This document shows positions 3,465 to 11,301 of a stretch of DNA of 42,273 bases, in pieces (the stretch's first letter is position 1; each line of letters begins with the position of its first letter). The notes under the pieces are model-generated. The model searched no databases and was not told the DNA's origin. It was given only the letters and a program-made list of their open reading frames with translations. A program made the translations under genes and the position numbers. Source of the DNA: Candidatus Omnitrophota bacterium (GTDB lineage: Bacteria; Omnitrophota; Gorgyraeia; Zapsychrales; Zapsychraceae); assembly GCA_023247445.1 (NCBI GenBank), contig JAHFGL010000019.1, positions 1 to 42,273 on the forward strand, given 5' to 3'.

Positions 3465-4694
3465 ATGGAATTTAAATACACCGCGACAGATAAAAAAACT
3501 GGAAAGAAAATTAGCGAAGTCACAAGCGCTGATAATATCTCGTCCTTAGTCTTTCGACTTAAGGATCAGGGACTGGTGCCTCTACATATCTCCGAATCAA
3601 AATCAGCAAAAACAAAACGTAAAGCGCCGCCGATGCTCCCGGTATTTCGTAGCAACAGAGTTAAAGGAAAAGAGCTGGCCATCTTTACCCGTCAGTTAGC
3701 GGCAACCTTAAGCGCTGGTCTTTTATTAACCGAAGCCTTAGAAACCATTGCTGATGATTTAGAAAACGCGTATTTTCGTAAAATTATTCGTAATATTAGG
3801 GAAGAAATCCAAAGCGGAACAAACTTTTCTGTCGCCTTAAAGAAATATCCAAAAATTTTCCCCGTGACCTATGTGGCCATTGTTAAGTCTGGTGAGGCAA
3901 CGGGAAACATGCACAAAACTATGATGAATTTAGCCCAATATTTGGAAAATTCTGAACGGATGAAAGAGAAGGTCAAAAGTGCAGTTCGTTATCCTTCTTT
4001 CGTTTTGGGCTTTGCGCTGTTTGTGGTCGCCGTCATTGTTTTATTTTTAATTCCTAAATTTGAAGGACTATTTGCCAATGCCCATGCCAAACTTCCTTTA
4101 TTAACGCTTATCGTTGTTAGTATTAGTCGTTTTTGCTTAAAAAATGCCGTGCCCGTTTTAATTTCTATTGTCGTTTTATGGATCATCTTTCTTTATCTAC
4201 TACGTTTTCCACGAACACGCTATATCATCGATAGTTTTAAATTTAAAATCCCAATTATTGGAAAACACATCATTCACAAAGCTGTTGTTTCTCGATTCTG
4301 TCATACGCTTGGATTCTTACTTTCCGGTGGCGTTGGATTATCAACGGCGCTGGAGATTACCACTCAAGTCGTTGACCATATTCAAGCTGGCCAGGCTGTT
4401 GATAAAATTCGTACCAACGTTATCAGCGGTTCAACGTTGTCTGATGAAATTCGTAAACAAAAAATATTTCCTCGCCTAGTTTCTAAAATGACCGCTGTAG
4501 GAGAGAAGACGGGACGATTAGATGATATGCTTTTACGCACCGCGCAATATTATGAAGATGAATTAGAAACAACGTTACAAAATTTAACCGTTTTAATTGA
4601 ACCGGTTCTTATTGTTTTTATTGGGGCGATTGTTCTCCTTGTGGTCTTAGCACTTTATCTACCAATTTTCCAAATTTCAACAGCTGTCAGATAA
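3465..4694 (+). CDS. pilC: Inner-membrane platform protein, PilC/GspF family
   Basis: A 409-residue protein with two tandem GspF domains. Each is a soluble helical bundle followed by membrane helices, at about residues 170-195, 210-245 and 375-405. The first repeat contains the characteristic TRQLAATLSAGLLLTEAL segment and the second CHTLGFLLSGGVGLSTAL. PilC is the membrane platform through which PilB drives pilin insertion. It begins 4 bases after the pilB stop, so the two are translationally linked. The C-terminus ends IFQISTAVR. A decayed copy of this tail appears downstream at about 5386-5440, beyond an intervening toxin-antitoxin-like pair. Confidence 0.95.
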   Translation: MEFKYTATDKKTGKKISEVTSADNISSLVFRLKDQGLVPLHISESKSAKTKRKAPPMLPVFRSNRVKGKELAIFTRQLAATLSAGLLLTEALETIADDLENAYFRKIIRNIREEIQSGTNFSVALKKYPKIFPVTYVAIVKSGEATGNMHKTMMNLAQYLENSERMKEKVKSAVRYPSFVLGFALFVVAVIVLFLIPKFEGLFANAHAKLPLLTLIVVSISRFCLKNAVPVLISIVVLWIIFLYLLRFPRTRYIIDSFKFKIPIIGKHIIHKAVVSRFCHTLGFLLSGGVGLSTALEITTQVVDHIQAGQAVDKIRTNVISGSTLSDEIRKQKIFPRLVSKMTAVGEKTGRLDDMLLRTAQYYEDELETTLQNLTVLIEPVLIVFIGAIVLLVVLALYLPIFQISTAVR

Positions 4695-4767
4695 ACCTGG
4701 ATAAAAAACATGAAATTTAAAAGGCTTACGAAGACAATTTTATAGATATATGTACAGTAAGTAAAAA

Positions 4768-5229
4768 ATGAAAATTCTAAGGGTTTATATTGATACATCA
4801 GTTATTGGCGGTTGTTTCGATGATGAGTTTGCCCATTGGTCGAATGCTTTGGTTGATAATTTTCGGATGGGATATTTTAAACCAGTGGTTTCCGATATTG
4901 TTGCTAATGAGGTTAATGATGCACCGATACACGTTATTCGTAAATACGGTGAAATTGTCTCTTGTGATGCTGATCTGTTGATCGCTGATGATGAAAGCGC
5001 TAATTTGATGCGGCAATACCGGATTCATAAAATTTTGAGTGATAAATTTGAAGATGATATGATGCATATTGCGCTGGCGACGGTAGCTAAAGTAGACATT
5101 TTGGTCAGTTGGAATTTTAAACATATTGTTCATTATGATAAAATTCGTCAGTTTAATGCGATAAATATTAAGCAGGGATATGCCCCGTTGGTTATTTATT
5201 CCCCGAGGGAGGTGGCTCATGAAAAATAA
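4768..5229 (+). CDS. PIN-domain protein, probable toxin RNase (VapC-like)
   Basis: This 153-residue protein starts with the PIN signature YIDTSVIGG, which gives the first catalytic Asp. It has further acidic residues in the middle (FEDDMMHIALA) and a late VSWNFKHIVH segment, matching PIN-domain ribonucleases of toxin-antitoxin pairs. A 53-residue basic gene overlaps its 3' end by 11 bases and is the likely partner. The pair lies between pilC and the major pilin, where it has no obvious pilus role. The order, toxin first, is the reverse of classical vapBC. Enzymatic activity is inferred from the family. Confidence 0.82.
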   Translation: MKILRVYIDTSVIGGCFDDEFAHWSNALVDNFRMGYFKPVVSDIVANEVNDAPIHVIRKYGEIVSCDADLLIADDESANLMRQYRIHKILSDKFEDDMMHIALATVAKVDILVSWNFKHIVHYDKIRQFNAINIKQGYAPLVIYSPREVAHEK

Positions 5230-5380
5230 ATTGGATGCGGTTTCTATGGTCAGAAAGATCCGTGATAAAAACTATCGTTTAACTAAAGGTATGACTGTAA
5301 AGCAAAGATTGGCTTTCTATCGTAAAGGGGCTGAGGAATTACACAAAAAATTAGCCGTCAACCAGCGAATATTTGCTTAA
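5219..5380 (+). CDS. Small basic protein, putative partner of the PIN protein
   Basis: The ATG at 5219 is preceded by a strong Shine-Dalgarno sequence, GGGAGGTG, and overlaps the end of the PIN gene by 11 bases, so translation is probably coupled. The product is 53 residues, rich in Lys and Arg, and contains the segment TKGMTVKQRLAFYRKGAEEL, which should form an amphipathic helix. Small proteins with a similar GMT...RKGAEEL pattern accompany PIN-domain genes in other genomes, and I infer an antitoxin. No recognisable DNA-binding motif is seen. A frame open further upstream (from 5180) is rejected as the start because of this ribosome-binding site. Confidence 0.65.
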   Translation: MKNKLDAVSMVRKIRDKNYRLTKGMTVKQRLAFYRKGAEELHKKLAVNQRIFA

Positions 5381-5385
5381 TAGCT

Positions 5386-5440
5386 TTCTCAAGAATCTCA
5401 ACAGCTATCAGGTAGACGCGGTCGAAAGAAATTTACAAAG
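5386..5440 (+). repeat. Decayed duplicate of the pilC 3' end
   Basis: The bases at 5386-5415 would read FSRISTAIR-stop in one frame, against FQISTAVR-stop at the end of pilC (4668-4694). The DNA shares TCAACAGCT, then TCAG and TA, at the same spacing. Farther on, GAAATTTACAAAGC here matches GAAATTTAAAAGGC after pilC. The two copies flank the PIN/partner pair as an imperfect direct repeat, suggesting insertion with duplication of the target region. The similarity is short and is judged by eye. Confidence 0.5.
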
Positions 5441-5454
5441 CAACCTAATATCAT

Positions 5455-5467
5455 GTGATATAATCAC
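5455..5467 (+). promoter_or_regulatory. Extended -10 promoter of the major pilin gene, with a symmetric overlap
   Basis: TGATATAAT at 5456-5464 is an extended -10 element (TG-n-TATAAT). No good -35 sits 17 bases upstream; TTTACA at 5432 is 21 bases away. The same bases form an inverted repeat GTGAT-ATA-ATCAC (5455-5467) that could be an operator. The pilin ATG lies about 60 bases downstream behind the ribosome-binding site GGGGAGAG. Confidence 0.5.
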
Positions 5468-5529
5468 TTCACTATAAACGAAAATACAAACAAACGAATG
5501 ATGCGAATAAAAAAAGGGGAGAGAAGAAC

Positions 5530-6111
5530 ATGTCAAACAAACAAGGTTTTACAATGGTTGAGTTACTTGTCGTATTAGTTATCGTCGGTATCTTAGCCGC
5601 CGTTGCAACACCAATCTATCTGCAAAACGTCCAACGATCTCGAGCCGCTGAAGCAATTGCTACGATGGGATTATTGCGCCAAGCCCAGCGAGATTATCAG
5701 TTAAATTCCAATAATTATTTCGATACAAATGGTGGATCAGCTACACCAGACACAACTAATGGACAAATTCAAAATGGCTTACCAACTTCTGTTACTGCCG
5801 CAACCGGAGCTCCATCACCATTAACAGCTGGAGCTAACGTAAATGTTGGGACAGCCCAATATTTCTCTAATTCAGCATTTTCGGTTGATTCTGTTAACCA
5901 AAGCGCTACTGGTGCTTCAGCTCTATTTACTGGCCCAAATTCTGTTAACTTTATTGTTACTGCTAACGGAAATAATAGTCGTGCTTGTTCTGGGGCGATC
6001 ACCAACTGTGCTGTTAAAGCGAGTGAAGTTGCTAATTATCGATTGGAAATGGATAATAGTGGTCGTATTTTTGTTTCTTATGATAATGGAACAACTTGGA
6101 GTGCGTATTAA
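5530..6111 (+). CDS. Major type IV pilin-like protein
   Basis: The 193-residue precursor has a class III prepilin leader MSNKQG cut before F7. The mature N-terminus FTMVELLVVLVIVGILAAVA has Glu at mature position 5, followed by the hydrophobic assembly helix. The globular part is rich in Ser, Thr, Asn and Gly, and a Cys pair at residues 153 and 160 could close a C-terminal disulfide loop. It has the strongest ribosome-binding site of the pilus genes (GGGGAGAG) and its own promoter, and a terminator follows it directly. That is the expected layout for an abundantly made major subunit. A pre-pilin peptidase is needed but is not in this window. Confidence 0.9.
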   Translation: MSNKQGFTMVELLVVLVIVGILAAVATPIYLQNVQRSRAAEAIATMGLLRQAQRDYQLNSNNYFDTNGGSATPDTTNGQIQNGLPTSVTAATGAPSPLTAGANVNVGTAQYFSNSAFSVDSVNQSATGASALFTGPNSVNFIVTANGNNSRACSGAITNCAVKASEVANYRLEMDNSGRIFVSYDNGTTWSAY

Positions 6112-8551: not shown

Positions 8552-8845
8552 ATGATCAAAAGTTTCAAAGATACCGAAACTGAAGATATCTACAATGGGA
8601 CGAGAAGTAAAAAAGCCTTAAAACAATTGCCTATTGAACTTTGGAAAGTTGCATATAGAAAATTTTACGCCCTGGATCATGCAATATCACTCAACGACTT
8701 AAGATCGCCTCCTAACAACAAGCTCGAAGCGTTGATAGGGAATAGAAAAGGGCGGTATAGCATTAGGATTAATGACCAATATCGGGTTTGTTTTTATTGG
8801 ACATCTCAAGGACCAACGTCAGTTGAAATAGTTGATTATCATTAA
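8552..8845 (+). CDS. higB: HigB-type toxin (RelE superfamily mRNA interferase)
   Basis: This 97-residue protein begins IKSFKDTETEDIYNGT. Its second half has the conserved pattern LEALIGNRKGRYSIRINDQYRVCF, ending in VEIVDYH, which defines HigB toxins that cleave mRNA on the ribosome. Its C-terminal His and the Arg residues of the RYSIRIN-QYRVCF strand match family active-site residues. The antitoxin gene follows with its ATG 14 bases after the stop. The predicted -10 lies 6 bases upstream of the ATG, leaving no room for a ribosome-binding site. The pair interrupts the pilus locus. Confidence 0.9.
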   Translation: MIKSFKDTETEDIYNGTRSKKALKQLPIELWKVAYRKFYALDHAISLNDLRSPPNNKLEALIGNRKGRYSIRINDQYRVCFYWTSQGPTSVEIVDYH

Positions 8846-8858
8846 GGAGGATGTGAGT

Positions 8859-9194
8859 ATGAAATATAACTCTACAAAAACAACAATACGATTACCGCAA
8901 AACAGACCGCCTGTTCATCCTGGGCAAATATTGCTGGAAGAATATATGTTGCCTTATGATATTACGCAACAAGCCATGGCAACGCATTTAAAAATTTCCC
9001 GAAAGCACCTGATTGATATTATTCATGCGTCAAAACCAATCTCTCTTGAAATCGCCCAACGTCTAGCTAAACTTTTTCAAACTTCCATCGATTTTTGGAT
9101 TCAAGGCCAAATGGTTTATGATTTATGGCATGCAATACGTCATCCGAGTCCAAAGCTAAAATCTATTAAACCGCTAAAATTAAGTATGAATTAA
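8859..9194 (+). CDS. higA: HigA-type antitoxin (HTH, XRE family)
   Basis: The start at 8859 is chosen because AAGGAGG (8844-8850) lies 8 bases upstream; a start at 8832 inside higB would lack this site. The 111-residue product has the HigA signature PPVHPGQILLEEYMLPYDIT, then a helix-turn-helix (QQAMATHLKISRKHLIDII) and the AQRLAKLFQTSIDFWI tail. It should neutralise HigB and repress their common promoter through the inverted repeat at 8499-8518. The stronger ribosome-binding site for the antitoxin than for the toxin favours excess antitoxin. Confidence 0.92.
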   Translation: MKYNSTKTTIRLPQNRPPVHPGQILLEEYMLPYDITQQAMATHLKISRKHLIDIIHASKPISLEIAQRLAKLFQTSIDFWIQGQMVYDLWHAIRHPSPKLKSIKPLKLSMN

Positions 9195-10827: not shown

Positions 10828-10844
10828 ATTCTTTGATTTTAAAA

Positions 10845-10918
10845 TGGAGCGGGAGAAGGGAATCGAACCCTCGCTACCAGCTTGGAAGGCTAGAGTTCTA
10901 CCACTGAACTACTCCCGC
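10845..10918 (-). tRNA. tRNA-Gly (TCC)
   Basis: On the minus strand the gene starts GCGGGAGTAGTTCAGTGGTA and ends CTCCCGCTCCA. The acceptor stem GCGGGAG/CTCCCGC is perfect, the T-loop is TTCGATT and the anticodon loop CTTCCAA gives TCC. Discriminator T and CCA are encoded. It is the last tRNA of the minus-strand Thr-Tyr-Gly cluster. Confidence 0.95.
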
Positions 10919-10943
10919 GCGAGATCTGTAATAAATATTTTTA

Positions 10944-11026
10944 TGGGCAGGGGCGGATTCGAACCACCGAAGCGCAAGCGCAACAGATTTACAGTCTGTT
11001 CTCGTTGACCACTTGAGTACCTACCC
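10944..11026 (-). tRNA. tRNA-Tyr (GTA)
   Basis: On the minus strand it starts GGGTAGGTACTCAAGTGGTC and ends CCGCCCCTGCCCA. The anticodon loop CTGTAAA gives GTA. A long variable arm (GCGCTTGCGC region) marks a class II bacterial tRNA-Tyr. The acceptor stem has one G-T pair and CCA is not encoded, unlike the neighbouring tRNA-Gly. Confidence 0.95.
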
Positions 11027-11068
11027 AAATTTACCAAAGAAATAAAAATTTATTTTTAGAAGAAATTT

Positions 11069-11116
11069 GGGTGGTCCCAGCTTCAAATAATTTATTTAGA
11101 AAAGCTGGGGCTACCC
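11069..11116. repeat. Hairpin element 2 of the tRNA region
   Basis: The arms GGGTGGTCCCAGCTT and AAGCTGGGGCTACCC enclose an 18-base A/T-rich loop. The pairing is complete except for one mismatch and one G-T pair near the base. It lies between tRNA-Tyr and tRNA-Thr and shares its outer-arm pattern with elements 3 and 4. Confidence 0.65.
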
Positions 11117-11140
11117 GTCTTAGTTCTATTTATTCTTGGC

Positions 11141-11183
11141 GCTGCCCCAACTTTCCTAAAATAATTATAGAAGTTGGGACTGC
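11141..11183. repeat. Hairpin element 3 of the tRNA region
   Basis: The arms GCTGCCCCAACTT and AAGTTGGGACTGC enclose a 17-base A/T-rich loop. The mismatch at arm position 3 and the G-T pair at position 5 are the same as in the element at 11347, while the inner stem differs (CAACTT instead of TGATTT) with compensating changes. Confidence 0.65.
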
Positions 11184-11228
11184 TTCTCTTTTTTCTGAAA
11201 TATAATTTGTTAATTTGTTGAAAAGAGA

Positions 11229-11301
<73 letters not shown>

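Follow-up and report, generated by a model that had tools for sequence, protein, structure and literature searches.

To our knowledge, the way in which chromosomal toxin-antitoxin pairs spread in the absence of a transposase is an open question. Integron cassettes and gene-end integrative elements form small stacked cassettes, carry recurring repeats and use gene ends as sites, and restriction-modification systems have reportedly been found to insert with a long target duplication (by Nobusato in 2000 and Furuta in 2010). Here we describe a short module, a predicted PIN-domain nuclease gene and its small partner gene, that lies behind pilC in a 42,273-nucleotide stretch of a Candidatus Omnitrophota bacterium genome (GenBank assembly GCA_023247445.1, contig JAHFGL010000019.1; the whole stretch is called the window). 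The end of pilC reappears on the far side of the module, and direct repeats, which where recognisable derive from the ends of unrelated genes, flank some other members of the same module family.

The closest described systems are known to us from excerpts of published accounts. In them, the insertion of restriction-modification genes is said to go with a long duplication of the target, variable in length and on the order of 100 bp (PMC3874152, PMC3031569, PMC1643837), and Vibrio type VI effector-immunity arrays are described as growing by stepwise insertion beside a conserved gene, with remnants of older endings left behind (PMC5361080). As a base rate, in alignments of E. coli, S. aureus and S. 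pyogenes, 10-18% of the variable segments are given as repeat-flanked, and 66-94% of these have repeats under 30 bp (PMC2884548). Among the matches listed in a literature search on target duplications or flanking repeats around toxin-antitoxin modules, and in the excerpts consulted, the effect was ascribed to restriction-modification systems only and was not reported for toxin-antitoxin modules.

The pilC end and the PIN/partner module in the window

The genome that contains the window (G000) is 2.29 Mb in 75 contigs and 95.6% complete. Between pilC and a type IV pilin-like gene, the module is enclosed by two copies of the pilC end in an imperfect direct repeat:

3465 to 4694, plus strand: pilC, T2SSF family, 409 aa, the intact target gene (open reading frame, ORF, and Pfam T2SSF match, 1.8e-59)
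4673 to 4744, plus strand: repeat copy A, the last pilC codons and about 50 bp of 3' DNA (local alignment, repeat finder)
4768 to 5229, plus strand: predicted PIN-domain (VapC-like) nuclease gene, 153 aa, with conserved D9, E48, D97 and N116 (ORF, alignment, structure model)
5219 to 5380, plus strand: 53-aa partner, presumed antitoxin, its start overlapping the end of the PIN gene (read from the sequence)
5386 to 5415, plus strand: orphan pilC tail, in-frame FSRISTAIR-stop (read directly from the sequence)
5394 to 5460, plus strand: repeat copy B, aligned extent (local alignment, repeat finder)
5530 to 6111, plus strand: type IV pilin-like gene (Pfam N_methyl match; pilC-pilin order in relatives)

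Copy A is the gene's own end (..PIFQISTAVR, stop at 4692-4694), and the stop of copy B is at 5413-5415. The initial annotation had described a shared core followed at similar spacing by a second motif, and both were found in each copy: TCAACAGCT at 4677 and 5398, and GAAATTTA at 4712-4719 and 5428-5435, with spacing that differs by 4 bases. The top local alignment (4673-4744 with 5394-5460) scored 20, compared with a mean of 9.3 and a maximum of 17 in 5000 dinucleotide-preserving shuffles (P about 5e-5 by a Gumbel fit to the shuffle scores), and none of 4951 random pairs drawn from the window reached this score (maximum 19). An independent repeat finder returned 4673-4711 and 5394-5432 (72% identity) as the longest direct repeat of the region. 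The reappearance of the pilC end after the PIN and 53-residue genes, proposed in the initial annotation, is therefore real, and the possibility named there that the similarity is no better than shuffled sequence did not hold. Since STAVR-stop (L004, L014) and STAIR-stop (L007, L008) are both among the pilC endings of relatives, both endings in the window are natural pilC variants. About 7 codons align between the two copies, too few to decide whether they are ortholog-like or decayed. A promoter and terminator scan of 4600-5600 was uninformative (6 promoter-like sites versus 4.0, standard deviation 1.8, and 1 terminator-like site versus 0.6 in shuffles).

Occupied and module-free sites were compared between related genomes rather than between strain-level pairs. 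The best pilC match was read in 14 other genomes, and the downstream DNA was readable in 13. A pilin-like ORF was found 33-694 bp downstream of pilC in 10 of these 13, three had neither pilin nor PIN within 1.5 kb, and a PIN motif behind pilC was seen in none of the 13. The pilC-pilin adjacency that had been suggested for checking is thus present in most of the relatives without the module; together with the same type of signature at other genes, it supports the claim that module entry separated pilC from the pilins. A second site, argG, can be read in the same way. In G066 the order is argG, PIN, partner, orphan argG tail and a start that we take, from its first residues, to be argH-like. In three of seven other genomes with the argG tail read (G057, G075, G077), argG is followed by the argH-like start without the module; the remaining four have another ORF (two genomes) or nothing recognised within the stretch read (two genomes).

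The AlphaFold2 model of the window PIN protein had a mean pLDDT (predicted local distance difference test) of 94.5, and its best structure matches in the PDB were PIN-domain proteins, many named VapC, at a TM (template modeling) score of about 0.6. A sequence-profile search of the PDB with the protein gave no match, and its Pfam score was under the cutoff (PIN_3, 21.2 of 27); PF01850 was passed by the homologs L112 and L129 and not by L002. In the family alignment of 84 sequences (12 of 96 were excluded as too short), D9 was conserved in 82/84 and E48, D97 and N116 in 84/84 each. Model and alignment together predict that the window protein is a PIN-fold, VapC-like nuclease with conserved acidic active-site residues. 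A simple rule picked a small ORF located at the end of the PIN gene, or overlapping it, in 82 of 84 loci, probably with at least three errors (the picks at L100, L103 and L127 look wrong). Searches for antitoxin families gave no reliable match for four partners in Pfam and NCBIfam, and likewise for three partners in PADLOC. Judged from sequence, the module would be a toxin-antitoxin-like pair in which the antitoxin role of the partner is presumed.

At E 1e-8, the PIN family was present in 13 of the 92 genomes searched, including the window's own. It also occurs in records from many phyla; of 235 pattern matches, 211 were confirmed and the best 80 kept. A phage search for the family returned no match, and a plasmid search returned three Leptospira records. 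On two Leptospira plasmids (L289, L290) the PIN/partner pair lies directly behind the replication initiation gene, a position that fits an addiction role.

Flanking repeats in the module family

The 100 loci with a match included 4 duplicates, leaving 96, and 11 had too little flank, leaving 85 non-redundant loci that were surveyed with 800-bp flanks and a local score cutoff of 24. Flanking direct repeats were found in 25 of the 85 (35-221 bp, median 84; identity 68-98%). Control windows of the same geometry on the same contigs had a repeat in 8 of 187, from 7 loci (Fisher p = 2e-8 versus the PIN family; these windows overlap and hence are not independent), and cross-locus pairs in 1 of 400. 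For the control families, 30, 24, 30 and 28 loci were fetched from related genomes only, whereas the PIN set spans many phyla; repeats flanked 1/28 pilC, 1/29 PF01850 PIN, 4/28 ParE/RelE and 3/24 HigB loci. The PIN family exceeded ParE and HigB pooled (7/52, p = 0.024). The repeats around ParE/RelE and HigB pairs, compared with PF01850 PIN and pilC pooled (7/52 versus 2/57, Fisher p = 0.06), are a hint that the pattern may be general.

The segment between the repeats was 619-1358 bp long (median 791) and under 1 kb in 22 of 25 loci. PIN and partner occupy about 0.65 kb of it, and the median distance from the partner stop to the repeat start was 55 bp (one artefact row included). A transposon or insertion sequence was rejected, as this leaves little room for a transposase in 22 of the 25 loci. 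The listing at a cutoff of 22 held 25 of 78 loci, among them L089, an artefact of a negative start coordinate; the target-gene listing contains the artefact rows L089 and L043, and several unconfirmed ORFs besides.

Twenty ORFs overlapping repeats were put to Pfam. Eight had no match (four of these on the minus strand), and the 12 that matched, at eleven of the 25 PIN loci and one ParE locus, were used in the codon test; repeats at the other loci may lie between genes. Nine of the 12 repeats are tails of upstream genes (FAD-linked oxidase twice, class-V aminotransferase, P5C reductase, argininosuccinate synthase, response regulator, glycoside hydrolase 20, rhamnosidase and protein kinase). The other three are heads of downstream genes (cyclase, RecQ-type helicase and glycine cleavage P-protein; L002, L087, L112). 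All 12 targets, and pilC, are co-directional with the module. An integron array was rejected because the 12 recognised repeats are the ends of different host genes, only glcD occurring twice; no attC model search was run. In the Planctomycetales, the glcD site is common to two genomes whose PIN proteins are 89% identical.

Read in the frame of the intact gene, the 12 pairs of copies differ by 76 synonymous and 28 nonsynonymous codons; one of the 28 is outside the gene, as the L112 frame starts two codons ahead of the start codon. Pooled nucleotide differences at codon positions 1, 2 and 3 were 21, 18 and 83. Under a null model with free drift of the orphan and constraint on the gene, about 35 synonymous and 72 nonsynonymous codons were expected, and the lowest nonsynonymous count in 300 simulations was 59. 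Because synonymous differences exceed this neutral-decay null, the pooled copies look like orthologs brought together, not one tandem copy decaying. At the ParE-type locus L136 (955-1878, response-regulator tail), the 137-bp repeat has 15 synonymous and 0 nonsynonymous codon differences, with the same peptide across 38 codons despite 19 nucleotide differences. At L113, L129, L130 and L097 the in-frame stop stands at the matching place as a different stop codon. The initial annotation had called the second pilC tail a decayed duplicate; entry of the module at the pilC 3' end is upheld, and simple decay of a duplicate is disfavoured by the ortholog-like pooled copies and the matching in-frame stops of several. 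A paralog was rejected as the source of the orphan glcD tail, since the tail of the second glcD of G092 differs (RSVKRALDPNN versus RAIKRAWDPNN), whereas over 28 residues the peptide of the orphan is identical to that of the adjacent gene. Over the stretch that could be read, the glcD copies L129 and L287 of G092 are near-identical in its first half and diverge in the rest, as by gene conversion, and both contigs break at the same glcD position.

Some loci carry stacked modules. In the window's genome, the second PIN copy (L002) lies between two versions of the beginning of the gene that follows it, a cyclase gene, giving one module and one orphan head. The cyclase locus of G035, a genome of a different family, holds two modules and three cyclase heads in the order ACP, head, PIN1, partner, head, PIN2, partner, cyclase (L311, contig C20, 1916-4537). 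PIN1 and PIN2 are 52% identical, and the second PIN is 71% identical to the PIN at the G000 cyclase site. At L042 (1310-3000) a 79-bp repeat occurs in three copies around the PIN module and a putative AbrB-like/RelE-like pair, named from its ORFs. In Microcystis, a 73-bp repeat (95%) surrounds the PIN module and a second putative toxin-antitoxin-like pair (L126, 2789-4506).

Elsewhere in the window, a HigB-like toxin gene and an HTH_3 (HigA-like) gene at 8552-9194 have no flanking repeat that exceeds the cutoff. The minus strand carries three tRNA genes (Gly, Tyr, Thr) at 10845-11301; an ORF called at 10844-11008, which overlaps two of these genes, is probably spurious.

A proposed route of entry and its rivals

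We lean towards the reading, which we hold to be somewhat probable, that a PIN-nuclease/antitoxin addiction cassette invaded the pil operon at the pilC end, bringing a relative's gene end with it, by a single crossover. The 0.7-kb segment would then be an addiction cassette without a transposase. DNA from a related bacterium, carrying the cassette and the adjacent gene end, would enter the cell and become circular, and one homologous crossover in the recipient's copy of the gene would leave a complete chimeric gene and an orphan end. The pooled codon evidence calls for incoming DNA of a related lineage that carries part of that gene beside the module. Cells losing the cassette by recombination between the repeats would be killed or stalled by the toxin-antitoxin pair, and the structure would for that reason persist around addiction modules and not around ordinary genes; such persistence is in line with the lower repeat rate in the pilC and geometry controls. 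Repeated entry would stack cassettes, n of them giving n+1 gene ends. In a laboratory study of cut DNA entering E. coli, partial duplications made up 56 of 60 recombinants (109-950 bp in the 14 that were sequenced) and were ascribed to trimming, recircularisation and a single crossover (PMC3240628). A wider version, which we regard as possible but on the doubtful side, is that the cassettes are transposase-free integrative elements, in which a small circle, joined to the end of the gene it last adjoined, uses that end as attachment homology in related species, restores the gene on entry, stacks at the same gene end and is held by addiction, and that other toxin-antitoxin families behave alike.

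If entry is by a single crossover, the products are mosaics, so either copy can look native; plain decay would not give the result seen at the G000 cyclase (L002), where the orphan head outscores the intact head in 16 of 18 comparisons with relatives (at one more locus, L304, the motif script returned no head). Among cyclase proteins, the one from G035 is the closest to that of G000 (90% identity), and in the protein tree G000 groups with G035 and G008 (95/79, flagged open by the program). The KS neighbour of the G000 cyclase is 81.8% identical to that of G035 and up to 84.5% to those of several family members. These comparisons no more than suggest that module and cyclase came together from a G035-like donor.

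A number of observations weigh against entry by a single crossover with a relative's gene end. The window repeat itself is below the survey cutoff of 24, as are 60 of the 85 family loci. The initial annotation had named modules without a repeat in relatives as a contrary sign; such loci exist, but at other sites, and older repeats may be undetectable. Taken singly, L113, L097, L100, L110, L087 and L112 do not reject neutral decay at 0.05; L112 has 0 synonymous and two nonsynonymous differences, one of them before the start codon, and the L087 orphan has lost one codon. Opposite to the cyclase, the intact recQ copy of G075 outscores its orphan in 7 of 7 comparisons, and for glcD of L129 the comparisons divide, with the orphan ahead in 3, the intact tail in 2 and one tie. 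No donor genome was identified, and the relatives of the G075 recQ are too distant to name one. The two G000 cyclase heads differ from each other as much as from G035 (15-17 of 63 nucleotides), and divergence of this kind makes a poor RecA substrate. The nucleotide identity of the cyclase to G035 is no higher than to G008.

We consider it unlikely that the cassette copies 50-220 bp of its target on insertion, as in the long target duplication of restriction-modification genes, with the intact gene later exchanging its end with diverged alleles. The length range and the target-derived repeats do match the published description as excerpted (PMC3874152), and some loci are near-identical (L107 100%, L083 98%, L113 97%, L125 97%, L112 96%). 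The L107 and L083 repeats, however, end at contig ends, and the pooled synonymous excess would need extra introgression at many loci with the orphan left unmutated. Homology-facilitated illegitimate recombination of a linear donor, one end homologous within the flanking gene and the other joined illegitimately, would make the native end the orphan. It accounts alike for orphans at upstream tails and downstream heads and for a cyclase orphan that is more typical than the intact head, and it has been proposed for Vibrio effector-immunity arrays with leftover parts (PMC5361080, in the part available). Published products, as far as the excerpt of PMC3240628 goes, generally carry a deletion, not a duplication, and at recQ the intact copy, not the orphan, is nearer to relatives; we judge this route unlikely too, if anything slightly more so than target duplication.

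Two further alternatives concern the orphan ends themselves. These could be kept by selection, for example as leader ORFs translationally coupled to the module, the synonymous divergence having arisen after simple duplication. The G000 L002 orphan head ORF does end overlapping the PIN start, and head 1 of G035 ends two bases ahead of the PIN1 start, but 9 of the 12 orphans are tails without the gene's own start and coupling needs no conserved peptide, and we think selection of this kind quite improbable. Chance similarity or a shared regulatory motif at the window pilC end would suit a repeat this short and below the survey cutoff; against the shuffle result, the in-frame tail with its stop and the strong repeats of the same module family at unrelated genes, we give it very little credence.

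Comparison with known systems

The pattern suggests a sequence signature of toxin-antitoxin entry in which the incoming DNA carries a piece of a relative's neighbouring gene. Entry by single crossover, with addiction holding the product, would explain why long repeats, which are expected to loop out, last around addiction modules, and the route is testable in ordinary laboratory strains.

Like integron cassettes and gene-end integrative elements, whose features were given above as general background, the modules stack with recurring repeats and sit at gene ends. They differ in that in 22 of 25 loci the segment between the repeats is too short to hold an integrase (an integrase elsewhere in the genomes was not searched for). 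VapBC-type modules share the PIN fold, with PIN/VapC structures nearest, and the conserved acidic residues; here, however, the toxin gene comes first, the four partners examined match no known antitoxin family in Pfam or NCBIfam, nor do three of them in PADLOC, and a flanking repeat was seen at just one of the 29 PF01850 PIN loci from related genomes. The Vibrio arrays resemble the present loci in stepwise insertion next to a conserved gene that leaves remnants, whereas their effectors, according to the excerpted account, swap at a few secretion clusters and the module described here is a short intracellular cassette at many unrelated genes (PMC5361080). The closest likeness in the excerpts is to restriction-modification insertion, which also involves addiction-type genes, target repeats of about 100 bp and cases unlinked to a known mobile element (PMC3874152, PMC3031569, PMC1643837). 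Here the unit is instead a PIN/antitoxin-like pair found in many phyla, with pooled ortholog-like copies and stacked arrays with three target copies, a contrast that is drawn from the present loci. The present case would work like insertion of restriction-modification genes with long target duplication, to which it adds ortholog-like divergence of the copies and the stacking of modules.

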